Assembly (NCBI RefSeq): GCF_000952855.1
Contig: NZ_JSVU01000002.1
Coordinates: 248,001 to 312,000, forward strand
DNA length: 64,000 nucleotides
Direction of reading: 5' to 3'
From: Aequorivita vladivostokensis
Lineage (GTDB): Bacteria; Bacteroidota; Bacteroidia; Flavobacteriales; Flavobacteriaceae
Shown here: piece by piece, positions 10,474 to 25,252 of the stretch
Position numbering within the stretch: the first letter of the stretch is position 1
Layout: the number at the start of each line of letters is the position of its first letter
Made by a program: the position numbers and the translations under genes
The notes under the pieces: model-generated
Told to the model about the DNA's origin: nothing
Seen by the model: only the letters and a program-made list of their open reading frames with translations
Databases searched by the model: none

Positions 10474-10482
10474 AATTGACTT

Positions 10483-11544
10483 ATGAAAACAGATGAAAAC
10501 ATAACAAAGATTTTAGGAGAAAAAGCATCCTACTATTTGGACCACGTTTGTGAAAAAATAACAAAGGATGAATTGCAAACACCAAGCAAAAACAGTCTCG
10601 ACAAAGTATTTACCAATAGTAACAGAAATCCGCAAGTATTGCGCAGTCTTGCCCAATTGTACAATCACGGAAACATAGGTGGCACAGGTTACTTGAGTAT
10701 TCTTCCTGTTGACCAAGGCATTGAGCATAGTGCTGCTTTCTCATTCTATAAAAACCCAGATTATTTTGACCCAGAGAATATCATCAAATTGGCAATAGAA
10801 GCAGGATGCAATGGAGTGGCTTCAACCTTTGGTGTTTTGGGATTAAATGCAAGAAAATATGCCCATAAAATTCCATTTATAGTGAAGATTAACCACAATG
10901 AACTGCTTACCTATCCCAACAAATATGACCAAACATTATTTGGAAAGGTCAAAGCGGCTTGGGATATGGGAGCGGCTGCAGTAGGTGCTACCATCTATTT
11001 TGGTTCTGAAGAAAGTAATAGACAGCTAAAGGAAATTTCGGAGGCTTTTGAAGAAGCTCACAATTTAGGTATGGCTACCATTTTATGGTGCTATACCCGA
11101 AACGAAGCCTTTAAAACTAAAAAAGAAGATTACCACGCTGCTGCCGATGTAACTGGACAGGCCAATCACTTGGGTGTTACTATTCAGGCAGATATTATTA
11201 AACAAAAATTGCCTACAAACAATTTTGGCTTTAAAGAGATAGGGTTTGGAAAATATGATGATGAAATGTATGATACGTTGACAACAGATCATCCTATTGA
11301 CCTTTGTAGGTTACAAGTAGCCAATTGTTATATGGGTAAAATAGGATTAATTAATTCCGGTGGCGGCTCTAAAGGAGCGTCCGATATAGTGGAAGCGGTT
11401 ACAACAGCCGTAATCAATAAAAGGGCAGGCGGTTCTGGGTTGATAATGGGTCGAAAGGCATTTCAAAAACCCTTTGGTGAAGGGGTTAAATTAATCAATG
11501 CTGTGCAAAGCATCTATTTAGATGAAAAAATAAATATTGCATAA
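10483..11544 (+). CDS. fbaB: Class I fructose-bisphosphate aldolase, FbaB/DhnA type
   Basis: A 353-residue Schiff-base aldolase that cleaves fructose-1,6-bisphosphate to two trioses, or condenses them. It matches the E. coli FbaB pattern over nearly its whole length: [12 protein letters not shown] (about 134-145), [20 protein letters not shown] (about 167-177), [18 protein letters not shown] (about 223-240), [10 protein letters not shown] and [16 protein letters not shown]. Class I enzymes need no metal ion, unlike the zinc-dependent class II FBA usual in bacteria, which makes sense for a cell exposed to toxic metals. It is directly downstream of type II GAPDH and its product feeds it. Confidence 0.93.
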
Positions 11545-11586
11545 TCACTAAACGAGGACATAAAAAAATTGATTCATCTTTTAATA

Positions 11587-12507
11587 ATGACGTTACTATT
11601 CATTTCCATAGTGTTCATTTTACCTGTAGTAGCTATTGCAGGCTATCAGCATTACAAGATTGGTACGCAACCAGCTTATGATGCCAACGAAACGCTCTTG
11701 AATTATGAAATAATAGGTTCTGGAATAAACAAACTCGTTTTGCTGCACGGTTTAACAGGCTCGTTGAATTATTGGAAACGTGAATTAGAAAGCATAACTA
11801 AAACACATTCCTTGCTTTTGATAGACCTTCTAGGCTTTGGTGATTCGCCAAAACCAAAAAGTGATTATTCCTTATCGGTACAACTGCAAGCGTTAGAATT
11901 GATTTTAAAAAAAGAAGGGTTCAATGATGGAAAAACAACTATTGCGGGACATTCAATGGGAGCGATAATTTCATTAGCACTTTTAGAGAAATATGCTCAT
12001 TGGTTCAAGGCAGGAGTTTTTATCGGCATACCTGTTTATAAAGATGCAGATGAATTTAAGAAAGTAATGTCCACACATTCCCTTGTGGATAGGATTTCGT
12101 CAAGTAAATTCTCAAAATACATCTGTATGATTCATCCCATATTTATGTCACGTGCATTCAAACCCGATAACCTAACGGATGAAGTTTATGAAGATGCAAA
12201 AAAGCATCATTGGATGAGTTATTATTATTCGCTCACTGAAGTCATCTTGAAAACAGATTTATATGTGATGGCAAGGAAAATTAAGGATAAAGACGTGCTT
12301 TTTATCCACGGAGAAAAAGACACCACGGCGCCTTTAGAGAATGCCTTAAAATTATCAAGGGAATTTAAAAATGCACACCTGATTACTTCATCGGAAGGAG
12401 ACCATCAATTCTTTTTGAAAGAAGCAGAATTTGTTTGGAACACAATCCAAGGTTTTACTATTTCAGAAAAAAAGTTACAAAAAACCATATCTAATGAACA
12501 CTATTAA
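11587..12507 (+). CDS. Alpha/beta hydrolase, membrane-anchored
   Basis: About 306 residues from ATG at 11587; a TTG at 11569 would add six residues. An N-terminal hydrophobic helix anchors it. The fold shows an oxyanion-hole HGLTGS, nucleophile elbow GHSMGA (about residue 128), acid HGEKDTTAP (about 246) and histidine EGDHQF (about 272), so the Ser-Asp-His triad is complete. The substrate is unknown: an ester, lactone or lipid are all possible. Its 3' end overlaps the PFK gene by 14 bases, implying translational coupling with the glycolytic block and not a chance neighbour. Confidence 0.85.
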   Translation: MTLLFISIVFILPVVAIAGYQHYKIGTQPAYDANETLLNYEIIGSGINKLVLLHGLTGSLNYWKRELESITKTHSLLLIDLLGFGDSPKPKSDYSLSVQLQALELILKKEGFNDGKTTIAGHSMGAIISLALLEKYAHWFKAGVFIGIPVYKDADEFKKVMSTHSLVDRISSSKFSKYICMIHPIFMSRAFKPDNLTDEVYEDAKKHHWMSYYYSLTEVILKTDLYVMARKIKDKDVLFIHGEKDTTAPLENALKLSREFKNAHLITSSEGDHQFFLKEAEFVWNTIQGFTISEKKLQKTISNEHY

Positions 12508-13468
12508 AATTAAACATATAGGCGTATTTACATCTGGAGGTGATAGCCCTGGTATGAACGCTGCTCTGTACGCCATTGCCAAATCCGCTGAAGCAAAGAG
12601 TATAAAAACTAGTGGTTTTCGAAAAGGGTATGAAGGGTTGATAGATGGGGATTTAATATCCTTAAAATCACACGAATTACAAAAGTCATTACACCAAGGT
12701 GGCACTGTCCTAAAAACAGCACGGAGCAAGCGATTTCTGGAACTGGAGGGTCGAAAAAAAGCATTGCAAACCATAAAAGCGAACAACGTAGATGCCCTAA
12801 TTGCTATTGGCGGCGATGGCACATTTAAAGGTCTATTGGCTTTTTCAGAAATATGCGATATCCCATTTATAGGTATTCCAGGAACTATCGACAACGATAT
12901 TTCCGGTACAGATTACACCCTCGGTTTTGATTCCGCAGTAAATACAGCCATTGAAAATATTGATAAAATACGAGATACCGCTGAATCCCACAACCGTGTG
13001 TTCATTGTAGAAGTAATGGGAAGGGATTCAGGCTATATCGCTATTCATTCGGGTTTGATGGTCGGTGCAGATGCCATCCTAATTCCAGAAAGCGGGAAAG
13101 ACTTTATATACCTATTGGACAAGGTTAAAAACTACGATAGCGAAGATGCCTTCCTTGTCGTGGTTTCTGAAGGTGATGAAATAGGTGCTGAACTTGTTTC
13201 CTCAAAAATAAAGGAGGTTAATCCCGATGTCGATTTACGAATCACCAAACTTGGCCACGTACAGCGAGGCGGAAATCCTTCTGCTTTAGATAGAATGTTG
13301 GGAATTAGACTTGGAGTGGCAAGTGTAAACGTCCTTTCAGAAGGTAAAAAGAACGCGATGGTTGGAATTTTGAATAATCAATTGCACCTAACCCCTTTTA
13401 AAGAGGTAGTCAAACAACATCAGGTAAATACTGAATTATATGAACTTTTAGAACTATTTGGGAAGTAA
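12494..13468 (+). CDS. pfkA: ATP-dependent 6-phosphofructokinase
   Basis: A 324-residue PfkA-family kinase making fructose-1,6-bisphosphate, the substrate of the aldolase two genes upstream. The start chosen is ATG 12494 (MNTIKIKHIGVF); an open frame further upstream runs inside the hydrolase gene. Motifs: GVFTSGGDSPGMNA (residues 10-23), GGDGTF, PGTIDND, MGRDSGYIA and HVQRGGNPSALDR. The residues GGDG and PGTIDND mark the ATP-using class, since PPi-dependent enzymes carry GGDD and PKTIDND. It overlaps the hydrolase gene by 14 bases and precedes the D-lactate dehydrogenase by 11 bases. Confidence 0.93.
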   Translation: MNTIKIKHIGVFTSGGDSPGMNAALYAIAKSAEAKSIKTSGFRKGYEGLIDGDLISLKSHELQKSLHQGGTVLKTARSKRFLELEGRKKALQTIKANNVDALIAIGGDGTFKGLLAFSEICDIPFIGIPGTIDNDISGTDYTLGFDSAVNTAIENIDKIRDTAESHNRVFIVEVMGRDSGYIAIHSGLMVGADAILIPESGKDFIYLLDKVKNYDSEDAFLVVVSEGDEIGAELVSSKIKEVNPDVDLRITKLGHVQRGGNPSALDRMLGIRLGVASVNVLSEGKKNAMVGILNNQLHLTPFKEVVKQHQVNTELYELLELFGK

Positions 13469-13479
13469 AATAAAAAGAA

Positions 13480-14478
13480 ATGAAAACAACCATATACAGC
13501 ACACATAAATTCGATAAACCTTCCATTGTAAATGCCAATAATGGAAAGCATCAACTGAATTTTTTAGAATTTCGACTAACAAAGGAAACCGCCTTATTGG
13601 CAGAAGACTCAAAGGCCATAGCACTTTTTTCCAGTGATGACGCCTCTTCGGAAGTGTTGAAGATTTTACACAAGCAGGGCATAAAATTCATCGCTTTACG
13701 CTCGGCAGGTTTTAATCACGTCGATTTAAAAAAAGCATCAGAACTGGGTATAAAAGTGGCTCGTGTGCCAGCATATTCCCCGTATGCAATTGCCGAACAT
13801 ACAATGGCGCTGATACTTGCATTAAATCGAAAATTAATTAAAGCGCACAATAGGGTTCGCGAACAAAACTTTTCATTGAACGGCCTGACTGGTTTCGACC
13901 TCAATGGAAAAACCGTGGGTGTGATTGGAACAGGGAAAATTGGGTCTGTGCTCATAAAAATTCTACACGGATTTGGTTGCAATATTCTTGCTCAAGATAT
14001 TAATGAAGACCAAAATATGATAGATAAATATGGTGTAATCTATACGGATTGTGCAACGCTCTGTAAACACTCCGATATAATAAGCCTGCACATACCATTA
14101 AAAGTTTCAACAAAACACTTGATTGACAAAGAACATATTGCACTTATGAAACCTGGAGTAATGCTCATCAATACCAGTCGTGGCGGATTGGTAGATACCA
14201 AGGCGGTTATCGAAGGATTGAAAACCAAAAAAATTGGCTATTTCGGAATAGATGTTTACGAGGAAGAAGAAGGGTTGTTCTTTGAAGACCATTCTGAAGA
14301 TATTTTGCAAGACGATGTGATTGCACGATTAATGACCTTCAACAATGTATTAATCACAAGCCATCAAGCATTTTTAACCGAAACAGCTATGACCAATATT
14401 GCTGAAACAACCATATATAATCTGGACTGTTTTGAAAAGCAAGTGCGTTCTGGAAACGAAGTCTTTTCGGAAAATTAA
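13480..14478 (+). CDS. ldhA: D-2-hydroxyacid dehydrogenase, probable fermentative D-lactate dehydrogenase
   Basis: A 332-residue NAD-dependent enzyme reducing pyruvate to D-lactate. Motifs: RSAGFNHVDL (about 74-83), YSPYAIAEHTMALIL, GVIGTGKIGS (dinucleotide fold, about 146-155), NTSRGGLVD with the substrate Arg, and DVYEEEEGLFFEDHS (about 255-269), which is characteristic of LdhA-type D-LDH and not of glycerate or phosphoglycerate dehydrogenases. The catalytic His lies in SHQAFLT (about 305). With PFK, aldolase and GAPDH in the same unit it closes a fermentation route that regenerates NAD. Other 2-keto acids remain possible substrates. Confidence 0.87.
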   Translation: MKTTIYSTHKFDKPSIVNANNGKHQLNFLEFRLTKETALLAEDSKAIALFSSDDASSEVLKILHKQGIKFIALRSAGFNHVDLKKASELGIKVARVPAYSPYAIAEHTMALILALNRKLIKAHNRVREQNFSLNGLTGFDLNGKTVGVIGTGKIGSVLIKILHGFGCNILAQDINEDQNMIDKYGVIYTDCATLCKHSDIISLHIPLKVSTKHLIDKEHIALMKPGVMLINTSRGGLVDTKAVIEGLKTKKIGYFGIDVYEEEEGLFFEDHSEDILQDDVIARLMTFNNVLITSHQAFLTETAMTNIAETTIYNLDCFEKQVRSGNEVFSEN

Positions 14479-14496
14479 CAATAACCAAAAATAACA

Positions 14497-15123
14497 ATGT
14501 TAAAAATAATCCTTCTATGGTATAAAACAGTTGCAGCAAAAGCCGCAACAGAAGTGCTGACGCCCAATTTTGAAGATATTGAAATTAAGGCAATCCTCAA
14601 GGGCTATTGGCTACGCTACAATGCGTTGAAAAGGGAGATTAAAAAAGAACCAACTTTTGGAGGAACACTTATGGTTCATCTTGCAGCAATGTCTACGGCT
14701 TTTTATCAAGAATTGACACAAAGAGGGATAAGTAATGCCAAAACCACAAAATACTTTTACGATATCGCTTGGAAGGTCTATAAAATAATGGGTAAGCTAT
14801 CTTGGAATATTACTCGACTAAAGTATCAAAGTAATGCTAAAAGGCTAAAATATGCCACCGAACTGTTTAGGGCATTTCCCTTCAGCAGCCCTTCCTATAA
14901 ATGGGAAAACATTCTTCAACCCGATAGTTCTGTTTGCTTTAATTGCACCAAATGTCCCGTTGCCGAATATTTTGAAACCAAAGGACTGTCCGAGTTCTGT
15001 GTAAATACTTGGTGTGCATTAGACTTTCCATTGGCCGAAATGTGGAATGCTAAATTGGAACGCACAAATAGTATTGCAGGTGGAGCAAAACTTTGTGATT
15101 TTAAATGGAAACCTAATAATTAA
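14497..15123 (+). CDS. L-2-amino-thiazoline-4-carboxylic acid hydrolase-like protein
   Basis: A 208-residue protein whose second half matches the ATC_hydrolase-like family: CFNCTKCPVAEYF (about 146-158), EFCVNTWCALDFPLAEMW (about 168-185), LERTNSIAGGAKLCDFKW (about 188-205). The named enzyme opens the thiazoline ring to cysteine derivatives, but most members, including those in bacterial stress clusters, are uncharacterised. Seven cysteines are present and may bind a metal. An N-terminal helical part (residues 1-130) shows no recognised domain. It follows D-LDH by 18 bases and precedes a USP gene by 12 bases. The enzyme name should be taken as a family label only. Confidence 0.7.
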   Translation: MLKIILLWYKTVAAKAATEVLTPNFEDIEIKAILKGYWLRYNALKREIKKEPTFGGTLMVHLAAMSTAFYQELTQRGISNAKTTKYFYDIAWKVYKIMGKLSWNITRLKYQSNAKRLKYATELFRAFPFSSPSYKWENILQPDSSVCFNCTKCPVAEYFETKGLSEFCVNTWCALDFPLAEMWNAKLERTNSIAGGAKLCDFKWKPNN

Positions 15124-15135
15124 AATTTAAATAAA

Positions 15136-15966
15136 ATGAAAAACATACTCGTACCCACCGATTTCTCTGAAAACTGTATCAAAGCTGCACATTTAGGCAT
15201 TAAAGTGGCCAAACTGTATAAGGCCGAAATACACTTTTTACACCTATTGAAAACCCCTGTAGATTGGGTGAAATTGGATAAGCAAAAGGAAAACAGATAT
15301 CCAGAGACATTAAAAAAAATTGGCAATGCCAGAGCAGCTTTACGAGAACTGGAAAGAACCGCAGAACGTGAAGGATTAAAATGTCGCAGGTTTCTACAAT
15401 TTGATGCTGGACAAGGCGATATTTTAGACCATTCAAATCATTATCACCACGATTTCATCATAACAGGAAGCAGTGGCACCAAGGGGGTCATCCGAGAAAT
15501 AACTGGTAGTAATGTCGAAGAGATTGTTCGAAAAGCAAATGCTCCTGTTATTGTGGTAAAGGATGAACCAGTATCGTTTCCGTTCAAAGACATTGTATTT
15601 GTTTCAGACTTTAAGGAAGATGTCAGTCGACCGTTTCAAGAAGTGCAATCCATTGCTGAAAAATGTGATGCAAAAATCCATCTGTTACGGATTAATACAG
15701 AAACTGACTTCAATAGCATCGAGCAAGGATTAAACCCAATAAAAGAGTTTCTGCAAAAATTTCCATCAGTAAAAAACTATGGGATGGCTGTTTACAATGA
15801 ACCTTCGGTAGAAACGGGAATCAACACGTTTGTAGAACAGCAGCCAACAGATTTAATTGCAATGGTTACACACGGCAAGACAGGGTTTTTAAGTCTATTC
15901 TCTAAAAGCATCGCTGAAGGTGTTACCAATCATTCCACATTACCCGTAATGACAATACATATTTAA
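15136..15966 (+). CDS. Tandem-domain universal stress protein
   Basis: A 276-residue protein with two UspA folds. Domain one (about 1-148) begins KNILVPTDFSENC and has the loop GSSGTKGVIREITGSNVEEI. Domain two (about 152-276) begins FKDIVFVSDFKED and has THGKTGFLSLFSKSIAEGV. The first loop fits ATP binding fairly well; the second is shorter and may not bind nucleotide. Tandem USPs often act as sensors or as partners of metabolic enzymes. It sits between the ATC-hydrolase-like gene (12 bases) and the ATP-cone gene (3 bases). Confidence 0.87.
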   Translation: MKNILVPTDFSENCIKAAHLGIKVAKLYKAEIHFLHLLKTPVDWVKLDKQKENRYPETLKKIGNARAALRELERTAEREGLKCRRFLQFDAGQGDILDHSNHYHHDFIITGSSGTKGVIREITGSNVEEIVRKANAPVIVVKDEPVSFPFKDIVFVSDFKEDVSRPFQEVQSIAEKCDAKIHLLRINTETDFNSIEQGLNPIKEFLQKFPSVKNYGMAVYNEPSVETGINTFVEQQPTDLIAMVTHGKTGFLSLFSKSIAEGVTNHSTLPVMTIHI

Positions 15967-15969
15967 AAA

Positions 15970-16812
15970 ATGGAAAACTCAATTAAAATAGTGAAACACT
16001 CTGGAGATGTAGTTGAATTTGATGTGGACAAACTCATCAATTCACTAAAACGGGCACAGGCAAACGATACCGTGATTAAGCAAATAGTAGCACAAATTGA
16101 GTCTACAATTTACGATGGTATTACTACAAAAAAAATCTACCAAATGGCATTTAAAATGCTTAAAGGTAAATCACGTGTAAGTGCCTCAAAGTACAAACTC
16201 AAAAAAGCCTTGATGGAATTAGGGCCTTCCGGTTTTCCATTTGAAAAATTAGTGGGGAAACTATTGGCACACGAAGGGTTTGAAACAAAGGTTGGTGTGA
16301 TTGTACAGGGCAATTGCGTGCAACACGAAGTAGATGTTATAGCCCAAAAGAATAATTACCATTATATGATTGAGTGCAAATACCATAGCGACCAAGGACG
16401 GTTTTGCAATGTCAAGATTCCCTTGTACATCCATTCACGGTTTTTGGATGTTGAAAAACAATGGGAACATCAAAAAGGTCACGAGGCCAAACTACATAAA
16501 GGCGGTGTGTACACCAATACACGATTTACAACCGATGCGGTGCAATATGGTAAATGTGTTGGATTGTTATTGACAAGCTGGGATTATCCTATGGAAAATG
16601 GTTTAAAAGACAGAATAGACAAGTCTGGATTTCATCCCTTAACAGCATTAACAACTCTGACCAAATCCGAAAAAACAAAATTATTGGATAAAGGAATTGT
16701 ACTCTGCAAAGAGCTTCACGAAAAACCTACTTTATTAAACCAAATTGGAATTGATAAAACAAGACATAAAAAGATTTTGGAAGATTCTGAAGCATTATGC
16801 AAAAACCATTAA
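15970..16812 (+). CDS. ATP-cone domain fused to a PD-(D/E)XK (Mrr-like) nuclease domain
   Basis: A 280-residue protein. Residues 1-88 form an ATP-cone (IKIVKHSGDVVEFDVDKL at the start, YKLKKALMELGP at the end), the nucleotide-sensing module of ribonucleotide reductases and NrdR. Residues 89-200 show a restriction-like nuclease core: HEVDVIAQKNNYHYMIECKY gives the D-x(n)-ExK active site. The last 60 residues may be a helix-hairpin-helix (LLNQIGIDKTRHKKIL). No zinc ribbon is present, so it is not NrdR. A nucleotide-controlled nuclease is the likely activity, but its target (DNA or RNA) is unknown. It starts 3 bases after the USP gene. Confidence 0.8.
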   Translation: MENSIKIVKHSGDVVEFDVDKLINSLKRAQANDTVIKQIVAQIESTIYDGITTKKIYQMAFKMLKGKSRVSASKYKLKKALMELGPSGFPFEKLVGKLLAHEGFETKVGVIVQGNCVQHEVDVIAQKNNYHYMIECKYHSDQGRFCNVKIPLYIHSRFLDVEKQWEHQKGHEAKLHKGGVYTNTRFTTDAVQYGKCVGLLLTSWDYPMENGLKDRIDKSGFHPLTALTTLTKSEKTKLLDKGIVLCKELHEKPTLLNQIGIDKTRHKKILEDSEALCKNH

Positions 16813-16837
16813 AAAATATAATCTTAAAAATAATTAT

Positions 16838-17092
16838 ATGAAAACTAAAGAAACAAAACCACAGAATAACATAGATTTTGAGCCTTTTTACGAAGCATTG
16901 GAGAATGACCCGAAACTACTTGAAGAGGCCTTGGAAATACTATTGGATATGGTAGACTTTGAACCTAAATCCATAAAAAAGGTAGCACTCTATATCAAAG
17001 AGGATTCACGAAACCTATATAAAGAAATAGTAGAATTGAGTAAATCTAACCAAGATAAAGGGAATACACCTTCTTGCTGTGGTGGACTTTAA
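16838..17092 (+). CDS. Small hypothetical protein with C-terminal CC motif
   Basis: An 84-residue acidic, mainly helical protein starting at ATG 16838; the frame is open further upstream but overlaps the previous gene. It ends SCCGGL, a possible metal or redox site. The helical body (PFYEALENDPKLLEEALEIL) has no family I recognise. It lies between the ATP-cone nuclease and the beta-CASP gene with gaps of 25 and 15 bases, so it may be an accessory subunit to either. No function can be assigned. Confidence 0.65.
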   Translation: MKTKETKPQNNIDFEPFYEALENDPKLLEEALEILLDMVDFEPKSIKKVALYIKEDSRNLYKEIVELSKSNQDKGNTPSCCGGL

Positions 17093-17107
17093 ATAAATAG
17101 TACAAAG

Positions 17108-18484
17108 ATGAATAACACTAAAATAAACATTCACTTTCTGGGCGCAGCTGGTACAGTAACCGGCTCAAAATATTTAGTGGATACGGGAGAAAGAAAGATA
17201 TTGATAGACTGCGGACTATTTCAAGGGTTGAAGGAATTGCGCCTTAAAAACTGGGAATATCCACCCGTTGAAGTTTCAGAAATTGATATGGTCTTGCTTA
17301 CCCACGGCCATATGGACCACACAGGGTATTTACCTCGATTGGTAAAACAAGGGTTTAAAGGCCCGATTTACGGCACTAATCCCACTTTGGACATTGCAAA
17401 AATCATTTTGAACGATAGTGCAAAAATCCAAGAGCAGGAAGCCGAACGCGCCAACAAAGAAGGCTATTCCAAACATAGTCCGGCAGAACCGCTTTACGAT
17501 TTAAACGATGTTGAAAAAACCCTTCCACATTTCAAGGGAGTACCACCTGCTCAATGGATGCCATTGATGAAAAATATAAAGGCCAGATTTCAATACAATG
17601 GTCATATTCTCGGTGCCACTTACATCGAGTTGGATATACACGGAAAACGTTTTGTCTTTTCGGGAGATATTGGAAGAACCAATGATTTATTGCTCTACCC
17701 ACCACTAAAACCAAAAAAAGCGGATGTGCTTTTCATTGAATCCACTTATGGCGGAAGATTTCATCCAGATGAAGTAGAAGCACTGCCACAGATTGAAAAA
17801 TTGGTCAACGATACCATCAATAGAGGTGGCAGCCTGTTTATTCCAAGCTTTTCGGTAGAACGTGCCCAATTGATGATGCTCATTTTTTGGAGATTATTAA
17901 AAGAGAACAAAATACCGAAAGTACAAATGATAATGGACAGTCCAATGGGAGCGAATGTACTCGAACTCTTCCACCGTACAAGGGATTGGCACAGATTAGA
18001 GGACAATGAATGTGATGAAATGTGCTCACATTTCACGGTCGTAAGCAGTTATCGTGAAACAATGGAATTAAGAACAGACAACAAACCAAAAATCGTGATT
18101 GCTGGAAGTGGAATGCTTACAGGTGGAAGAATGCTCAACTATCTCGAAACCCAAGCGCAAAACCCAAATAACACCTTACTTTTTGTAGGCTATCAAGCTG
18201 AAGGCACTCGTGGAAGAAAACTATTGGAAGGCGACAAGGAATTAAAAGTGTATGGAAAAACGGTATCCTTTCAAATGGAAGTAGCCGAAATTCAAGGCCT
18301 CTCTGCACACGCAGACCACGCTGAACTTTTGGATTGGATGAGCAAAATAAAAAATAAACCAGCCCGAATTTTTATTGTGCACGGAGAAAAAGAAGGTGCC
18401 GAAGCACTTCAAAAAGGAATAAAGGAAACCTATGGGTGGGATGCGGAAATCCCGCAACTCTACAACATTGAAGAAATAGAATAG
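17108..18484 (+). CDS. Beta-CASP metallo-beta-lactamase-fold RNase-like protein
   Basis: A 458-residue protein with the full MBL plus beta-CASP plus RMMBL layout. Zinc-binding THGHMDHTG is at about 76-84, FSGDIG with the next ligand near 205, IESTYGG at about 224, the beta-CASP insert at about 245-385 with GSGMLTGGR near 344, and LSAHADHAELLDWM (motif C region) near 400. Its start IHFLGAAGTVTGSKYLV is typical of bacterial members resembling archaeal and eukaryotic RNA-processing nucleases. It should cleave RNA endo- or exonucleolytically. Beside an AMP phosphorylase it may supply nucleotides from RNA, which is inference. Confidence 0.9.
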   Translation: MNNTKINIHFLGAAGTVTGSKYLVDTGERKILIDCGLFQGLKELRLKNWEYPPVEVSEIDMVLLTHGHMDHTGYLPRLVKQGFKGPIYGTNPTLDIAKIILNDSAKIQEQEAERANKEGYSKHSPAEPLYDLNDVEKTLPHFKGVPPAQWMPLMKNIKARFQYNGHILGATYIELDIHGKRFVFSGDIGRTNDLLLYPPLKPKKADVLFIESTYGGRFHPDEVEALPQIEKLVNDTINRGGSLFIPSFSVERAQLMMLIFWRLLKENKIPKVQMIMDSPMGANVLELFHRTRDWHRLEDNECDEMCSHFTVVSSYRETMELRTDNKPKIVIAGSGMLTGGRMLNYLETQAQNPNNTLLFVGYQAEGTRGRKLLEGDKELKVYGKTVSFQMEVAEIQGLSAHADHAELLDWMSKIKNKPARIFIVHGEKEGAEALQKGIKETYGWDAEIPQLYNIEEIE

Positions 18485-18505
18485 CTTTTGGAAAAATTAA
18501 AAATT

Positions 18506-20008
18506 ATGGAACAACACTCAAACATATTAAAATATAAGCATCTCGGAATCTATACACAAAACGAGAATGTAGTGTATATGCGTGAAGATTGCCACGTCTG
18601 TGTTTCCGAAGGGTTTGAGGCACTTACCCGAATAAGGATATCCAATGTAACCACATCAATCGTAGCAAGCCTTAATGTTTTAAATTCAGATATTCTGTCA
18701 CCAAATGAAATAGGGCTATCTGATGCTGCTGCGAAAAAACTGAATGTTTCAGAAAATGATACTTTGTACGTTTCACATTTGGAACCTATTGAATCGTTAA
18801 GCCACGTCAGAGCGAAAATCTATAATCAAAAACTGGATTATAAAGCTTATAACGAGATTATAACCGATATCGTGGAAGGCGACTATTCAAACATCCACCT
18901 TTCGGCATTTATAACAGCCTGTGCAGGCGACCGAATGGATATTGATGAGATATCCGACCTTACCAAAGCTATGATAGCTTCCGGAAAGCAACTGGATTGG
19001 AACAAAGAAATCGTAGTCGATAAGCATTGCATTGGCGGATTACCTGGCAATAGAACCACACCATTAGTGGTTGCCATTGTGGCTGCTTACGGGCTTACGA
19101 TGCCAAAAACATCATCGAGAGCTATCACTTCGCCAGCAGGCACAGCTGATACTATGGAAGTAATGACCAATGTTACCCTTTCATTAGAAGAAATAAAAAC
19201 CGTGGTTGAAAAAGAAGGAGGCTGCATTGTTTGGGGCGGTACAGCGCAATTGAGTCCTGCGGACGATATTCTTATTAAAATTGAAAAAGCCTTGGATATT
19301 GATAGCGAAGGACAGCTCATTGCTTCGGTACTTTCAAAAAAAGCTGCGGCAGGTTCAACGCACGTCGTCATTGATATTCCCGTGGGAGAAACCGCCAAGG
19401 TACGTAGTACAGAAATGGCTCAAAAACTAAAAAACCATATGGAAACCGTTGGAACGGCTGTTGGGCTGAATGTAAAAGTTGTTATAACAGATGGCACACA
19501 GCCTGTCGGAAGAGGTATTGGTCCTGCTTTAGAAGCCATCGATATATTGAAAGTTTTAAAAAACGAAGCTGATGCACCAAATGACCTAAAGGAAAGGGCT
19601 TTGACTTTAGCTTCTGAACTATTAGAGCTTTCTGGGAAAGTAGAAAAAGGGAAAGGATTAATAACCGCAAATCAACTTCTCAAATCTGGAAAAGCTTATG
19701 AAAAATTTGTGGCCATTTGCAAAGCACAAGGTCGCTTTTCAAAACCTGTTTTAGCACCTTATAAAATCGAAATTAAAGCCGAAAAGTCAGGAGTTTTAAA
19801 AAGAATTGATAACCGAAAGATTGCAAAACTCGCCAAGCTTTCGGGGGCACCAAACTCAAAGTCGGCAGGGATTCTTTTAAATGTCCATTTAGACGAAAAA
19901 ATTGAAATAGACCAATTGTTATATACAATATATGCAGAATCTCAAGGCGAACTTAATTATGCTTTGGAATATAAAAATAACCACGACGACATCATAACCA
20001 TAATTTAA
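18506..20008 (+). CDS. AMP phosphorylase / thymidine phosphorylase family enzyme (archaeal-type layout)
   Basis: About 500 residues from ATG 18506; an in-frame TTG at 18488 would add six. The length and N-terminal extra domain (residues 1-85) match archaeal AMP phosphorylase and its bacterial relatives, not the 440-residue DeoA. Motifs: KHCIGGLPGNRTTPLVVAIV (about 173-192) for phosphate and ribose binding, SRAITSPAGTADTMEVM (about 203-219). The archaeal enzyme splits nucleoside monophosphates with phosphate to give base and ribose-1,5-bisphosphate. No ribose-1,5-bisphosphate isomerase or RuBisCO is visible here, so the fate of that product is open. PRPP synthetase follows after 5 bases. Confidence 0.85.
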   Translation: MEQHSNILKYKHLGIYTQNENVVYMREDCHVCVSEGFEALTRIRISNVTTSIVASLNVLNSDILSPNEIGLSDAAAKKLNVSENDTLYVSHLEPIESLSHVRAKIYNQKLDYKAYNEIITDIVEGDYSNIHLSAFITACAGDRMDIDEISDLTKAMIASGKQLDWNKEIVVDKHCIGGLPGNRTTPLVVAIVAAYGLTMPKTSSRAITSPAGTADTMEVMTNVTLSLEEIKTVVEKEGGCIVWGGTAQLSPADDILIKIEKALDIDSEGQLIASVLSKKAAAGSTHVVIDIPVGETAKVRSTEMAQKLKNHMETVGTAVGLNVKVVITDGTQPVGRGIGPALEAIDILKVLKNEADAPNDLKERALTLASELLELSGKVEKGKGLITANQLLKSGKAYEKFVAICKAQGRFSKPVLAPYKIEIKAEKSGVLKRIDNRKIAKLAKLSGAPNSKSAGILLNVHLDEKIEIDQLLYTIYAESQGELNYALEYKNNHDDIITII

Positions 20009-20013
20009 AAACT

Positions 20014-20907
20014 ATGAAAACAATATTATTCAGCCTTCCCGGAAATGAAGAACTCACAGAGCTTTTGGCAAAAAAGATGGATGCAGAAATAGGAAAAGCA
20101 ACCTTACGCAAGTTTCCAGATGGGGAATCTTACACACGTATATTATCTGATGTTAAAGACAAATGTGTAGTACTGGTATGCACCTTGCACGAACCAGACA
20201 AAAAACTATTGCCCCTTTATTTTTTAAGCCACACGGCCAAATCATTAGGAGCAATGTGCACCTGTTTAGTCGCACCCTATCTCGCCTATATGCGTCAGGA
20301 CAAAATATTCAATGCAGGCGAAGGTGTTACTTCTGGTTTCTTCGGAAAACTGATTTCAGGTTTTGCCGATAGCATTACCACCGTTGACCCGCACTTACAT
20401 AGAATTAGCTCCTTGGGCGAAGTATATAAAATCCCAAATAAGGTCATTCATGCTGCCGATGCTATTTCAGATTGGATAAAAGAAAACATAGAAAACCCTG
20501 TACTTATAGGTCCAGATTCTGAAAGTGAACAATGGGTTTCCGAGGTTGCTAAAAAAGCAGGAGCACCATTTACGGTATTGCAAAAAGTGCGTCACGGCGA
20601 CCGTGATGTAGAAGTCTCTGTTCCAGATGTGGACAAATACAAGGATGCCACACCTATTTTGGTAGATGATATTATTTCCACAGCGCGAACAATGATTGAA
20701 ACCGTACAACATTTGAAAAAAGCAGGAATGAAACCACCTATATGTGTGGGTATTCACGCAGTTTTTTCAGGAAATGCCTATCAAGATTTATTGGATTCCG
20801 GGGTGGAAAAAATAGTGACTTGCAATACCATCCCGCATCCTTCAAATGGTATTGATTTAAGTGATGTAATGGCAAAAGAAGTTACGAAATTGATGCATCA
20901 TATATGA
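20014..20907 (+). CDS. prs: Ribose-phosphate diphosphokinase (PRPP synthetase)
   Basis: A 297-residue enzyme that makes PRPP and AMP from ribose-5-phosphate and ATP. Motifs: RKFPDGESYTRI (about 29-40), YMRQDKIFNAGEGVTS (about 90-105) flexible ATP loop, DPHLHRI (about 125), and VDDIISTARTM PRPP loop (about 215-225). It is shorter than the usual 310-320 residues and its pattern is closer to archaeal or class III-like forms than to a typical flavobacterial Prs. The chromosome should also carry a standard prs. It lies 5 bases after the AMP phosphorylase and overlaps the next gene by 4 bases (ATGA), so the three are coupled. Confidence 0.88.
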   Translation: MKTILFSLPGNEELTELLAKKMDAEIGKATLRKFPDGESYTRILSDVKDKCVVLVCTLHEPDKKLLPLYFLSHTAKSLGAMCTCLVAPYLAYMRQDKIFNAGEGVTSGFFGKLISGFADSITTVDPHLHRISSLGEVYKIPNKVIHAADAISDWIKENIENPVLIGPDSESEQWVSEVAKKAGAPFTVLQKVRHGDRDVEVSVPDVDKYKDATPILVDDIISTARTMIETVQHLKKAGMKPPICVGIHAVFSGNAYQDLLDSGVEKIVTCNTIPHPSNGIDLSDVMAKEVTKLMHHI

Positions 20908-21548
20908 GAAAAAAAGGCTTCATATTACTATTCATCTTATTCAATATTACAATGAATGGACAAACTGAAATGCTCATTGGGCAGATTTCAGGAAGATTTG
21001 TCATTCGGGAGAATTTTGATGAAAAAGGTGCTTTTCTCAACAAACAAACTTTTGAAGCTGGTAAAACAATGGAGAAAAATGGATATTTTGAAATTGATGT
21101 AATCACAGAATTATTTGACAAAGACAAAAAATCCACCGATAAATATACAACGACCTATCGATGTAAGCCAGATGAAGCCAGTGTAATGGTAATGGCGTTT
21201 CCGTTTTCAAACCCAAAATCAGAAGAAACCGAAATCAATACCATTTCTGCAAATTTTAAAGAGTTGTATGACTTGGAAAACTTGGAAGATATAGAACTTG
21301 AAATGAGTTTTGATTCGGGCTTATTAAATTTTTTCGGTTCAAAAAGCACGATAAAGATTTACGACCGAAAATTAGATAGTAACAAAAAAAAAATTAATTC
21401 AAAAATCAACATTAAGGCCTATGCTTTGGGAATTCGCATTAAGCAACTCAATTATAATGTTTACGAAAAATTAAATGGAAACGGTTTATTGACCTTTCAG
21501 AAATTTACAGAAGAAGATAACAGTTATTTCACAATGACTTATAACTAA
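20904..21548 (+). CDS. Hypothetical secreted protein
   Basis: A 214-residue protein that begins with a signal peptide (KKGFILLFILFNITMNGQ, cleavage near residue 19) and continues as a beta-rich sequence with no recognised domain. Its ATG overlaps the stop of the PRPP synthetase gene by 4 bases, so it is translated with it. The body contains KYTTTYRCKPDEASVMVMAF and a long charged segment but no clear catalytic motif. A periplasmic or outer-membrane-associated role is possible, and no function can be given. Confidence 0.7.
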   Translation: MRKKGFILLFILFNITMNGQTEMLIGQISGRFVIRENFDEKGAFLNKQTFEAGKTMEKNGYFEIDVITELFDKDKKSTDKYTTTYRCKPDEASVMVMAFPFSNPKSEETEINTISANFKELYDLENLEDIELEMSFDSGLLNFFGSKSTIKIYDRKLDSNKKKINSKINIKAYALGIRIKQLNYNVYEKLNGNGLLTFQKFTEEDNSYFTMTYN

Positions 21549-21554
21549 AAACAA

Positions 21555-21848
21555 ATGAAAAATTACGATACACTATCAGAAGCTATTAACGATTTACAGG
21601 CAAGTGAATATCCTTATGATTTTAACTTAAAACCTGAATGCCTGGAATGTGCTTCACTGGAAATTGAGATTCATCCAGAGGATTTCAAAGTAGATAAAAC
21701 CTATCGTTTTGAAGGTATGAGCAGTACCGATGATAATAGCATTTTATACGCCATTTCATCAAAAAACGGAATTAAGGGTCTTTTGGTGGATGCCTACGGC
21801 GTATATGCCGAAAACATTTCTGAAGCAATGCGGAAAAAATTACGATAA
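21555..21848 (+). CDS. Small conserved Bacteroidota protein, sometimes labelled phosphoribosylpyrophosphate synthetase
   Basis: A 97-residue soluble protein with the pattern YDFNLKPECLECASLEIEIHPEDF (about 20-43 in family numbering) and a C-terminal DAYGVYAENISEAM segment. Proteins of this family are common in Bacteroidota, and public annotation often carries the name phosphoribosylpyrophosphate synthetase. It is far too short and has none of the PRPP or ATP loops, so the name is not supported by the sequence. Two cysteines in a CLEC motif could bind metal. It sits two genes after the true PRPP synthetase and 17 bases before the copper ATPase. Confidence 0.7.
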   Translation: MKNYDTLSEAINDLQASEYPYDFNLKPECLECASLEIEIHPEDFKVDKTYRFEGMSSTDDNSILYAISSKNGIKGLLVDAYGVYAENISEAMRKKLR

Positions 21849-21865
21849 CACTTAAATAGAACTAT

Positions 21866-24046
21866 ATGGACAATAACAAAAATCACAAGGACAAAAAAAT
21901 GGACCATTCGAAGATGGACCATTCTAAAATGAATGAAGATAACATCGACCATTCAAAAATGGACCACTCAAAGATGGACCACTCAAAAATGGAAGACCCA
22001 AAATCGGACGACCATAGCAAGATGGACCACAGTAAAATGGACCATTCAAAGATGAAACACGACCACGGAAGCATACCAATGGGTATGGCAGGCCACGACC
22101 ATCATAAGATGATGATTGCCGATTTTAGGAAACGGTTTTGGGTAACCCTTGTACTTACTATTCCCATACTGTTCTTCTCGCCGATGATTCAGGACTTTTT
22201 TGGATATGAGTTTTTGCTTCCCGGAAACCAATATATCCTTTTTGCACTTTCATCCGTAGTTTATTTTTACGGTGGTTGGCCATTTTTAACAGGATTTTGG
22301 TCTGAAGTAAAAAAAGGTGCACCAGGAATGATGACCTTAATAGCAATGGCCATTAGTGTGGCCTATTTTTATAGTTCCGCAACAGTCTTCGGATTGCAGG
22401 GTGTCGATTTTTTCTGGGAACTGGCAACTCTAATCGCTATTATGCTTGTGGGCCATTGGATAGAAATGAAAAGTGTCTTGGGTGCCTCAAAAGCCTTACA
22501 GCTTCTAGTAAGTATGATGCCTGCCGAAGCTCACAGAGTAAAAGGCGATACAATTGAAGATATTTCATTGGAAGATTTATTGAAAGATGATGTGATATTG
22601 GTAAAGCCCGGCGAGAAAGTTCCTGCCGATGGTATCATAATCGAAGGGTCTAGTTATCTGAACGAATCTATGTTAACTGGAGAATCAAAACCAGTAAAAA
22701 AAGAAGAAAAGGATAAAGTAATTGGAGGTTCTGTAAACGGCAATGGCAGCATAAAGGTAAAAGTGGTACATACAGGAAAAGACAGTTATCTCAACAAGGT
22801 TATCACAATGGTTGAGGAAGCACAAAAGACCAAGTCCAAAATGCAAAATCTATCGGATAGAGCAGCAAAGTGGTTGACTTATATTGCCTTGTCTATAGGA
22901 TTTGGTACGTTGGCAGTTTGGTTAATTCTAGGGTTCCCTTTTGTTTATGCATTAGAAAGAATGGTTACCGTTATGGTCATCGCTTGTCCACACGCACTTG
23001 GCCTTGCCATTCCACTTGTAGTTGCGATTTCTACCGCAGTATCTGCTCAAAATGGGCTATTGATTCGTAATAGAACCGCATTTGAGGAATCACGCAAAAT
23101 ATCCACTCTGCTCTTTGACAAAACAGGAACATTGACTAAAGGGGATTTTGGCGTTACCCGAATTGAATCGGTAGATAAAAAATATTCTTCAGATGAAGTA
23201 TTAAGACTTGCAAGTGCCTTGGAACAAAGCTCAGAACATCCTATTGCCGTGGGAATTATTAAAAAAGTGAAAGAAGACAAGGTTGCTATTCCCAATCCTG
23301 AAAACTTTAATGCGATTACAGGTAAAGGTGTAGAGGCAAACGTAGAAGGCAAGCAGGTGAAAGTAGTGAGTCCGGGCTATTTAAGGGATGAAAAAATTAC
23401 CATTCCTGAAGATGCTTATAGTGACGCCGCTGAAACGGTTGTATTTGTATTAATTGAAGGTGCTTTAGCAGGATACATTGCTCTTGCTGATGAAATAAGA
23501 CCTGAATCTGCCGAAGCAATAAGGGTCTTTAAAGAAAACAACATAAAAGTCTTGATGGCAACTGGCGATAACGAAAAAACCGCCAAAGCCGTAAGCGATA
23601 AACTTGGATTGGATGGATATTATGCCGAAGTATTGCCACACCAAAAAGTGGAAATCGTAAAAGAATTGCAAGGTAAAGGAGAATTTGTGGCTATGACGGG
23701 AGATGGCGTTAATGATGCACCTGCTTTGGCACAAGCAAACGTGGGTATTGCCGTAGGTTCGGGAACCGATGTGGCAGCAGAAACAGCAGACATTATTTTG
23801 GTAAACAGTAATCCACAGGATATTGCGAACTTAATTTTATTTGGAAAGGCTACCTACAATAAAATGATTCAGAACTTAATATGGGCAACGGGTTATAACG
23901 TTGTTGCAATACCATTAGCCGCTGGAGTTCTGTATTCTTCAGGATTTGTTTTAGGACCTGCGGTAGGAGCTGTATTTATGAGTTTGAGTACAATTATAGT
24001 GGCCATTAATGCGCAATTATTAAAGCGAAAAATCGGTAAAAAATAA
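21866..24046 (+). CDS. copB: CopB-type copper/silver P-type ATPase with DHSKM-repeat N-terminus
   Basis: A 726-residue P1B ATPase that exports copper or silver from the cytoplasm at the cost of ATP. Residues 12-67 carry eight DHSKM repeats, a His/Met metal-binding array. The core follows: TGES actuator motif (about 271), CPHALGLAIP in the metal-binding helix (about 375), phosphorylated Asp in FDKTGTLT (about 417), HP-type SSEHPIAVG, and GDGVNDAPAL (about 612). CPH is the signature of CopB-type enzymes, preferring Cu(II) or Ag, whereas CopA has CPC. No HMA domain is present, so delivery by the island's CopZ-like protein is uncertain. The MFS gene begins on the base after its stop. Confidence 0.94.
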   Translation: MDNNKNHKDKKMDHSKMDHSKMNEDNIDHSKMDHSKMDHSKMEDPKSDDHSKMDHSKMDHSKMKHDHGSIPMGMAGHDHHKMMIADFRKRFWVTLVLTIPILFFSPMIQDFFGYEFLLPGNQYILFALSSVVYFYGGWPFLTGFWSEVKKGAPGMMTLIAMAISVAYFYSSATVFGLQGVDFFWELATLIAIMLVGHWIEMKSVLGASKALQLLVSMMPAEAHRVKGDTIEDISLEDLLKDDVILVKPGEKVPADGIIIEGSSYLNESMLTGESKPVKKEEKDKVIGGSVNGNGSIKVKVVHTGKDSYLNKVITMVEEAQKTKSKMQNLSDRAAKWLTYIALSIGFGTLAVWLILGFPFVYALERMVTVMVIACPHALGLAIPLVVAISTAVSAQNGLLIRNRTAFEESRKISTLLFDKTGTLTKGDFGVTRIESVDKKYSSDEVLRLASALEQSSEHPIAVGIIKKVKEDKVAIPNPENFNAITGKGVEANVEGKQVKVVSPGYLRDEKITIPEDAYSDAAETVVFVLIEGALAGYIALADEIRPESAEAIRVFKENNIKVLMATGDNEKTAKAVSDKLGLDGYYAEVLPHQKVEIVKELQGKGEFVAMTGDGVNDAPALAQANVGIAVGSGTDVAAETADIILVNSNPQDIANLILFGKATYNKMIQNLIWATGYNVVAIPLAAGVLYSSGFVLGPAVGAVFMSLSTIIVAINAQLLKRKIGKK
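21902..22055 (+). repeat. 15-bp coding repeats encoding DHSKM
   Basis: Eight units of about 15 bases encode Asp-His-Ser-Lys-Met in clusters of two, three and three. Bases vary at synonymous positions, so the array is maintained at protein level and is not a fresh duplication. Confidence 0.85.
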
Positions 24047-25252
24047 ATGGAAAGAAAAGAAGAACTCAACAGGGTATTTTTAATTCTGTTGAGTTTATTT
24101 GTAGTGATGTTGGGCTATGGTATATTATTGCCAACCCTTCCTTACTATACCGAAAGGCTAGCAATAAAGGGCAATCTCGACACCGACCTTATCAACTTCC
24201 ATATTGGATTGCTTACGAGCATCTATCCATTTTTTCAGTTACTATTCGTAGTGGTTTGGGGAAAGCTTTCAGATAAATATGGTCGAAAACCTATAATCAT
24301 TTGTGGACTAATCGGTTTTGTAATTATGCAATTGCTCACTGGTCTTGCCACGTCTCTAACAATGCTTTATGTTGCTCGAATTTTTGGTGGTATTTTCACA
24401 TCAGCAGTTATTCCAGTTAGCAACGCATATTTAAGCGACATTACTTCTGAAAAACGGAGAACAAAAATAATGGCCTGGTCAGGCGTTGCCATTAGCTCTG
24501 GGGTTATTTTTGGCCCTGTCATTGGTGGCTTTCTATCCCAAACTGATATTCATATAAAATATTCTATAGGTCTGCTACATTTAGACCGATTTTCAGTGCC
24601 CTTTTTATTCGTTGCCCTATTAGGATTGATTGTGTTATTCGTTGTGATGAAATGGCTAAAAAACACCGCTCGTGTACATAGGTTAATGACACAAAAAGTG
24701 AGCTTGCGATTCACATTTACCAAATATTTTATTGTATTACTCATACTATCCTTTGTAGCCCAATTTGTTGTGACCTTGTTTGAAACTGTTTTTTCAATCT
24801 ATGGAAAAGATGAATTAGGGTTTAACAGCAAACAGTTGGGTTTAGGTTTTATGCTATGTGGTTCTGTGATGGCCGTTTTACAGCCTGTATTTGCTAGTTA
24901 TGGTGAGAAGTTTTTATCTCCTAAAAAGCAAATTGCCATTGGGTTCCTAATAGCCGGAGTATCCTTGATTGCTTTTCCTTTTTTTACAAGTGAATTCTTG
25001 GTATATGGATTAATCATTATGTTTGCTGCTGGTGGTGCTTTGGTAACGCCAAACTTGTTATCAGCAGTATCATTGACATCTAAAGAAAATACAGGTAGAA
25101 ATATATCCATACAAAGCTCAACAGGTAGCGTAGGTCAGATTTTAGGTCCTGTTGTAGGTACTTGGCTGATTGCAGATAGTTTTTACTATCCGTTTATTAT
25201 AGCTGGATTAATAGTTATAATTTCAATTGGATTAGTCCGATTTGTCACTTAA
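24047..25252 (+). CDS. MFS efflux transporter, TetA/multidrug-like
   Basis: A 401-residue twelve-helix transporter. The first helix reads VFLILLSLFVVMLGYGILLP, motif A is GKLSDKYGRKP (about 72-82), and GVAISSGVIFGPVIGG (about 143-158) forms the antiporter motif C. It therefore looks like a proton-driven drug or metabolite exporter. Its ATG follows the CopB stop with no gap, so expression is tied to copper efflux. The substrate is unknown; a chelated metal, organic acid or antibiotic are all possible. It is the last gene before the island boundary. Confidence 0.85.
   Translation: MERKEELNRVFLILLSLFVVMLGYGILLPTLPYYTERLAIKGNLDTDLINFHIGLLTSIYPFFQLLFVVVWGKLSDKYGRKPIIICGLIGFVIMQLLTGLATSLTMLYVARIFGGIFTSAVIPVSNAYLSDITSEKRRTKIMAWSGVAISSGVIFGPVIGGFLSQTDIHIKYSIGLLHLDRFSVPFLFVALLGLIVLFVVMKWLKNTARVHRLMTQKVSLRFTFTKYFIVLLILSFVAQFVVTLFETVFSIYGKDELGFNSKQLGLGFMLCGSVMAVLQPVFASYGEKFLSPKKQIAIGFLIAGVSLIAFPFFTSEFLVYGLIIMFAAGGALVTPNLLSAVSLTSKENTGRNISIQSSTGSVGQILGPVVGTWLIADSFYYPFIIAGLIVIISIGLVRFVT

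Follow-up and report, generated by a model that had tools for sequence, protein, structure and literature searches.

A conserved and often plasmid-borne gene trio with an archaeal-type AMP phosphorylase and a candidate outlet for ribose-1,5-bisphosphate in Aequorivita vladivostokensis

Here, we describe a module of three genes in a stretch of 64,000 nucleotides (hereafter the window) from Aequorivita vladivostokensis (Flavobacteriaceae), which covers positions 248001-312000 of contig C2 (NZ_JSVU01000002.1) of a genome of 3.27 Mb. Its members code for a beta-CASP ribonuclease (RNase)-type protein, a predicted archaeal-type adenosine monophosphate (AMP) phosphorylase and a divergent phosphoribosyl pyrophosphate (PRPP)-synthetase-like protein (Table 1). 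This trio is a genuine conserved module of known enzyme families that is often found on plasmids; its parts are of known kinds and their combination is unusual. We tentatively read it, at a confidence that stays short of even, as the section of a low-oxygen or stress island, carried between hosts horizontally, which breaks down nucleotides; its PRPP-synthetase-like enzyme would consume ribose-1,5-bisphosphate (R15P). An earlier note, made from the letters of the DNA, had described the three genes as adjacent, and they indeed follow each other on the forward strand with gaps of 21 and 5 bases. These gaps apply to a phosphorylase start at the ATG at 18506, which was preferred over the mechanically chosen TTG at 18488 and yields exactly 500 residues.

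The scan of genome contigs yielded at least 576 phosphorylase relatives; the 80 with the best scores were retained, which gives close relatives of the window extra weight. Together with nine further loci (six from plasmids and three from genomes) they form a set of 89 loci from several phyla, in which adjacency was counted via tblastn. A PRPP-synthetase-like gene is present in 81 of the 89 loci and lies directly downstream of the phosphorylase gene on the same strand in 75. The RNase gene occurs in 54 loci, directly upstream in 38 and directly after the PRPP-synthetase-like gene in two. When 14 near-copies or fragments were removed, the remaining 75 loci contained 69 PRPP-synthetase-like genes (63 directly downstream) and 44 RNase genes. 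The distance between the phosphorylase and PRPP-synthetase-like genes is at most 30 bases in 53/61 measured pairs and the two overlap in 39, with start codons picked mechanically. This means that the earlier proposal to look for the genes in unrelated bacteria can be answered positively, and that a trio seen nowhere else is excluded. A first-pass clustering of all neighbouring genes comprised 77 of the 89 loci (12 near-copies or fragments excluded) and missed the phosphorylase itself in six of the 77, apparently since long antisense open reading frames (ORFs) were preferred.

Among 395 Bacteroidota genomes the phosphorylase has matches at E <= 1e-30 in 132, only four of them at 60% identity or more, one of the four being a fragment of 305 residues; the other 128 are 26-34% identical to its core. 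The divergent PRPP synthetase was detected (E <= 1e-50) in three of the 395, and these are the same three that possess a whole long phosphorylase. Close kin of the island were found in Luteirhabdus, Arenibacter, Tenacibaculum, Gillisia and Mesonia. Among the rows of the phylogenetic tree the copies nearest to the window after Luteirhabdus belong to the gammaproteobacterium Marinicella (85%) and to a metagenome-assembled genome (MAG) of Verrucomicrobia (77%), which points to transfer between phyla. Base composition gave no signal of foreign origin, with 38.0% GC in the island and 36.4 and 40.0% in the rest of the window. In two loci (L044 and L117, the latter from Sphingobacterium cellulitidis, 99.9% alike) the phosphorylase is a 305-residue fragment, 87-88% identical to that of the window, and the other trio genes are absent; this is a decayed or broken copy.

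Plasmids were searched separately. Phosphorylase matches were obtained in 119 of 72,556 records (E <= 1e-30), and 101 records match the PRPP-synthetase-like protein (E <= 1e-40). Complete trios are annotated on plasmids of Pontibacter, Criblamydia, Acidovorax, Bradyrhizobium septentrionale, Legionella fallonii and Methylophaga. On a Sphingobium plasmid the RNase gene does not adjoin the phosphorylase/PRPP-synthetase-like pair, no RNase gene was seen in the stretch from Legionella anisa, which ends at the start of its record, and no PRPP-synthetase-like gene was found in that from Shinella. Universal stress protein genes lie close to the pair on the Sphingobium plasmid and also flank an archaeal AMP phosphorylase gene on a Natrialba magadii plasmid (L143).

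The phosphorylase scores above the cut-offs of the NCBIfam models NF003338 (690 bits, cut-off 434) and TIGR02645 (601, cut-off 435) and below that of the “AMP phosphorylase” equivalog TIGR03327 (488 against 535 bits). Its best solved relatives are 4ga4-4ga6 (E 2.3e-98, the next PDB family following at 1.1e-40), which we take to be the Thermococcus kodakarensis enzyme; 44% of 429 positions aligned with the 4ga5 chain are identical. Nucleoside phosphorylases match only from about residue 109 on, that is, behind an N-terminal extension, and the 500-residue archaeal-type layout recognised in the earlier note has been borne out. In a tree of 84 rows the 69 bacterial island proteins together with four archaeal AMP phosphorylases are split from 11 nucleoside phosphorylases with support 100/100, the island group itself having 91/96 and the archaeal group, which has four rows only, 90/63. 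The Arg of the “LRD” stretch, which corresponds to the one that binds the pyrimidine in E. coli thymidine phosphorylase, is present in 11/11 nucleoside enzymes and falls in a gap in the window protein as well as in the other four rows shown, two from islands and two archaeal, while the Ser and Lys after this column are kept. Twenty-seven positions are shared with the archaeal enzymes and differ from the nucleoside ones. These site counts cover 68 of 71 clustered proteins plus that of the window, and nucleoside rows from 10 of 14 loci tried plus one PDB chain. By sequence, the enzyme is thus of the archaeal nucleoside-5'-monophosphate (NMP) type rather than a classical thymidine phosphorylase.

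In T. kodakarensis the NMP phosphorylase TK0352 is described as converting AMP as well as cytidine and uridine monophosphate (CMP, UMP) to R15P, which is used by R15P isomerase and RuBisCO (PMC9700705). The window enzyme is of the same long, N-terminally extended type and R15P would be its expected product. In contrast with this archaeal pentose bisphosphate pathway (or NMP shunt), the carrier genomes tested possess no R15P isomerase above cut-off and mostly no RuBisCO, and their phosphorylase is linked to a divergent PRPP-synthetase-like gene and often to a beta-CASP RNase.

Potential users of R15P were sought in the four Bacteroidota genomes (own genome included) that carry the long phosphorylase or its fragment and in 40 other carriers hand-picked from the 80 loci, mostly named isolates. 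The E. coli R15P kinase PhnN belongs to another family than the PRPP-synthetase-like protein and would fill the very step that is proposed here for the latter. It is above cut-off in none of the four (best 49 bits against 156) and in six of the 40. R15P isomerase is equally missing: the IF-2B superfamily (PF01008) has no member in the four, and TIGR00511 has none above cut-off in the 40, ten of which show weaker matches below it. RuBisCO was found in none of the four and in three of the 40. These counts rule out PhnN, R15P isomerase or RuBisCO as general user, and no known user of R15P is general among the carriers tested; in most of them none was detected. The earlier note had named this missing link and proposed to look for a kinase or isomerase elsewhere in the genome, and the genome-wide search of the own genome found no isomerase, RuBisCO or PhnN above cut-off.

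The gene that is almost always next to the phosphorylase is that of the PRPP-synthetase-like protein. Its product is recognised by NF005537 (ribose-phosphate diphosphokinase) with 401 bits against a cut-off of 322, and shares the family, ATP, catalytic and ribose-phosphate motifs with housekeeping PRPP synthetases and with 1u9y, presumably the class III enzyme of Methanocaldococcus jannaschii. R94, Q95 and D96, the catalytic K191 and R193, and D219 are retained in 59/59 island copies, D218 in 58/59. In PRPP synthetases the PDxGGxxR loop holds the pyrophosphate of PRPP. In contrast, all 59 island copies have GPDxESxQW here (E170, S171, Q173, W174) instead of this canonical loop (PDKGA in the archaeal enzyme), and DPHLHR where ordinary PRPP synthetases have DLHAxQ. 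Housekeeping-type rows keep Gly170 and Arg174 in 11/11 and Gly171 in 10/11. The 59 copies are 58 of 64 clustered proteins plus that of the window; the 11 housekeeping-type rows comprise one human chain and the second copies from ten of the 17 genomes discussed below. Outside this set, the Methylophaga protein keeps GPDAESEQWV and DPHLHR, and that of Legionella fallonii has DPHLHR with a loop unresolved by the pattern used. Since the catalytic motifs are kept and the loop is changed, the chemistry seems to be retained and the part expected to bind the C1 phosphates altered. In human PRS1 activity requires Lys194 and Arg196 (PMC4363470).

A second PRPP synthetase, which shares 21-29% identity with the island protein, is encoded in 17/17 genomes examined, 16 of which also hold the island copy; in the own genome it is G000:C1:60769 (23% identical). 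As this second enzyme looks ordinary and the loop of the island copy is remodelled, the latter is probably not there to supply PRPP.

The first gene of the trio codes for a protein with the Pfam domains Lactamase_B, Beta-Casp and RMMBL, all above cut-off. Its top solved relative is RNase TTHA0252 of Thermus thermophilus (E 1.3e-71), with which it shares domain layout and motifs, namely THGHMDH at 65, GH at 165, SGD at 185 and SAHADH at 399. All four motifs presumably bind metal. To our knowledge, RNase TTHA0252 has no linkage to nucleotide catabolic genes.

The link to low oxygen comes from Bradyrhizobium diazoefficiens, where a single predicted operon, bll3117-bll3116-bll3115, unites these families in the order phosphorylase, PRPP synthetase, RNase; the RNase is thus last there and first in the window. 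A putative FixK2 box is placed at -74, and in Table 2 of the same paper bll3117 and bll3115 are down 6.6- and 30.6-fold without fixK2 (PMC9104804). At 0.5% O2, Table 2 of another study gives RNA of bll3117, bll3116 and bll3115 up 5.1-, 7.7- and 15.4-fold and protein up by log2 2.1, 4.4 and 2.9, probably within the less strict list of that table (PMC6515984). A phosphoketolase-acetate kinase pair (bll2518-bll2517) appears in the same FixK2 table (PMC9104804).

From these data the following working can be proposed. The beta-CASP enzyme would, judged from family and motifs, cut RNA, and together with host RNases this may release nucleoside monophosphates. With phosphate, the phosphorylase would split AMP, and probably CMP and UMP, to base and R15P, as its grouping with the characterised archaeal type and the loss of the nucleoside-type Arg suggest. 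The PRPP-synthetase-like enzyme would then take up R15P. When PRPP synthetase runs backwards, AMP attacks the phosphorus attached to C1; with a single phosphate at C1 the products would be adenosine diphosphate (ADP) and ribose-5-phosphate (R5P), and we consider this transfer of the 1-phosphoryl group to AMP the likeliest chemistry, ATP-dependent phosphorylation of R15P to PRPP being the alternative. Such a conversion of AMP to ADP and R5P would fit an AMP-degrading pair beside sugar-fermentation genes, and R5P may finally enter sugar-phosphate fermentation via the glycolytic enzymes of the window or, in some carriers, phosphoketolase and acetate kinase. This reading is supported by the conserved pairing, order and short gaps, the matching occurrence in the 395 Bacteroidota genomes, the low-oxygen induction in Bradyrhizobium, the archaeal-type grouping of the phosphorylase, the lack of detected R15P users in most carriers tested, the island PRPP synthetase as an additional, divergent copy with a recoded loop and retained Lys191 and Arg193, and the phosphoketolase and acetate kinase genes at some loci. 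In its most specific form it says that the PRPP-synthetase-like protein is a new R15P:AMP phosphotransferase (R15P + AMP = R5P + ADP) or else a kinase for R15P that has no relationship to PhnN. Together with the phosphorylase, it would constitute a bacterial pentose bisphosphate pathway without RuBisCO, by which the ribose as well as a phosphate bond are regained from AMP and RNA when oxygen runs out; this special form appears rather unlikely. The earlier note had drawn a route from RNA to PRPP, which holds up to R15P as far as the sequence tells. Its last step, PRPP synthetase rebuilding PRPP from R5P, leaves the chain broken, and the island copy is remodelled beside a second PRPP synthetase.

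Some loci carry fermentation genes near the trio. A phosphoketolase-type gene was clustered in 15/77 loci (5 of the 15 were checked against Pfam) and acetate kinase in 8/77. In the MAG loci L091 and L102 the phosphorylase and PRPP-synthetase-like genes are separated by those for acetate kinase and a phosphoketolase-like protein, and in Legionella fallonii phosphoketolase directly follows the trio. Four of five scanned proteins of this type are divergent, with PF09364 at 34-46 bits; those of L082, L100, L103 and L113, with good PF03894 and very weak PF09364 scores, are by sequence a separate subfamily. A clustered Acidovorax gene is annotated as “xylulose 5-phosphate 3-epimerase”. In locus L109 an acetate kinase ORF (L109:5244-6467) is located between phosphorylase and phosphoketolase, and its first ~23 residues look, by eye, like the N-terminus of the PRPP-synthetase-like protein; apart from these putative remnants, fused to acetate kinase, the PRPP-synthetase-like gene is gone from this locus.

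Several observations weigh against the consumption of R15P by the PRPP-synthetase-like enzyme in a low-oxygen island. The activities of all three proteins are predictions, and the open-access literature searched yielded no precedent for the use of R15P by a PRPP-synthetase-like enzyme. Loss of the PRPP-synthetase-like gene does not clearly coincide with the presence of another R15P user: in six of the eight genomes that have PhnN or RuBisCO the gene still adjoins the phosphorylase, and of three genomes with loci lacking it, RuBisCO (but no isomerase) occurs in L085, PhnN in L099 and none of them in G002, with the gene absence in L085 and L099 judged at the locus only and G002 carrying a phosphorylase fragment only. 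In L109 the phosphorylase is accompanied by acetate kinase and phosphoketolase in the absence of the PRPP-synthetase-like gene, which is thus not always needed. An unseen generic phosphatase or mutase could use R15P. Phosphoketolase was not found as a general partner, since at E <= 1e-30, a cut that misses divergent homologues present in some loci, it occurs in 4/43 carriers against 48/296 Bacteroidota generally and shows no enrichment in carriers, the 48 being mostly from one family (9/140 genera). The own genome has none at this threshold, and the feed of sugar phosphates towards glycolysis that the earlier note assumed is plausible from gene content only. The Bradyrhizobium-type PRPP-synthetase-like protein is divergent: in one record of Bradyrhizobium septentrionale it has 32% identity, and a copy in another, outside the set of 59, carries the loop GPDAESEPWV and lacks a DPH motif. 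Table 2 of PMC6515984 has a dash for the trio in the bacteroid and FixK2-target columns, unlike the later PMC9104804. FixK2 dependence is reported for B. diazoefficiens, whereas in the window FNR/FixK2-type boxes are not above chance (four found against 6.2 expected), so that we can only infer oxygen control of the trio in this genome.

The strongest competing explanation is in essence the route of the earlier note: an unlinked phosphatase or mutase makes R5P, and the PRPP-synthetase-like enzyme is a true PRPP synthetase for base salvage at low oxygen. It agrees with the score above the NF005537 cut-off and with the retained catalytic Lys and Arg, RQD and DD motifs, and generic phosphatases may indeed act on R15P. 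On the other hand, a second PRPP synthetase accompanies the island copy in 16 of the 17 genomes examined, the loop is remodelled in 59/59 and PRPP synthesis would cost ATP in a low-oxygen setting. We regard it as rather unlikely, though likelier than the other alternatives.

A different emphasis would be on adenylate housekeeping. When ATP falls, the phosphorylase might clear the AMP that piles up and thereby restore energy charge or enforce growth arrest, ribose recovery being secondary and the nuclease encoded upstream, with its ATP-cone, acting as ATP-sensing switch. Low-oxygen induction in the Bradyrhizobium tables would fit, as would the ATP-cone gene in 28/89 loci and a PPK2-type gene in 5/77 loci (named by eye and from the Acidovorax annotation). 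Nevertheless, the PRPP-synthetase-like gene next to the phosphorylase in 75/89 loci is left unexplained, and so are acetate kinase and phosphoketolase near some loci; we consider this explanation unlikely.

It is quite improbable that the second enzyme deserves its database name and acts as a phosphorylase of thymidine or pyrimidine nucleosides with deoxyribose- or ribose-1-phosphate as product. Exclusive use of thymidine, which the earlier note gave as a refutation, is likewise unlikely judging from the sequence. Plasmid relatives are annotated “thymidine phosphorylase family”, the TIGR03327 cut-off is missed and the own genome has just one other, weak match (21 bits), but the 100/100 split from the 11 nucleoside enzymes, the lack of the Arg common to all of these and the 27 archaeal-shared positions argue for the NMP type.

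An anti-phage or CRISPR-linked nucleotide-depletion unit is very improbable. The beta-CASP protein scores 399 bits with Cas14 of type VII CRISPR systems (NF045584), where the cut-off is 800, and the ATP-cone protein weakly matches CARF-PD-(D/E)XK nucleases (E 1.2e-6). However, PADLOC matches of the trio proteins are none or weak, and the window contains no CRISPR arrays and no family of direct repeats of at least 22 bases within 300 bases. A chance neighbourhood, in favour of which nothing was found, is refuted by the 75/89 loci across several phyla that keep the pair directly together.

In the window the trio is embedded in a same-strand run (9460-25252) with successive gaps of -14 to +25 bases, which is followed by 510 bases to the next gene. 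The order of the upstream genes is conserved in genome G198 (locus L042) at 73-93% identity, where the ATC-hydrolase-like gene has no match. The 2-hydroxyacid dehydrogenase-like gene was named via the annotation of its Pontibacter relative, the P-type ATPase (with a match in 48/89 loci) and the transporter of the major facilitator superfamily (MFS) by eye and by relatives. The ATP-cone/Mrr-like protein shows the motifs HEVDVI at 119 and IECKYH at 134 and is possibly an ATP-sensing nuclease. Directly downstream, the gene for the 214-aa protein (20904-21548) overlaps the PRPP-synthetase-like gene by 4 bases; the protein appears by eye to be secreted, has no Pfam match and has relatives in 16/89 loci.

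Table 1. Gene trio and neighbouring genes in the window (aa, amino acids; GAPDH, glyceraldehyde-3-phosphate dehydrogenase; Usp, universal stress protein)
Feature	Position	Strand	Length	Remarks
beta-CASP metallo-beta-lactamase-fold RNase-type protein	17108..18484	+	458 aa	
Archaeal-type nucleoside-5'-monophosphate (AMP) phosphorylase (predicted)	18506..20008	+	500 aa	
Divergent PRPP-synthetase-like protein	20014..20907	+	297 aa	candidate R15P user
Protein with ATP-cone and Mrr-like nuclease domains	15970..16812	+		common upstream neighbour; Pfam ATP-cone, Mrr_cat; 28/89 loci
Protein between ATP-cone gene and RNase gene	16838..17092	+	84 aa	11/89 loci; no Pfam/NCBIfam match
Upstream run: type II GAPDH, class I aldolase, alpha/beta hydrolase, phosphofructokinase, 2-hydroxyacid dehydrogenase-like, ATC-hydrolase-like, Usp-like	9460..15966	+		gaps -14 to +24 bases; family matches
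Downstream run: 214-aa protein, 97-aa protein, P-type ATPase, MFS transporter	20904..25252	+		gaps -4 to +17 bases

Genes of the AMP phosphorylase type are common in bacteria, as the at least 576 relatives demonstrate, and are called thymidine phosphorylase in the plasmid records listed; for the product they are expected to form no general outlet is known. In the open-access literature searched we found no function assigned to the trio; the relevant tables of the two Bradyrhizobium papers list it without one (PMC9104804, PMC6515984), and a third paper names bll3115 (PMC5017801). Even if the PRPP-synthetase-like neighbour should not be the outlet, the trio is a clear and assayable conserved operon without assigned function. 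If it is, mobile low-oxygen islands of this class would acquire a defined role in saving energy, and the chemistries of R15P known from PhnN and from isomerase and RuBisCO would be joined by another one.

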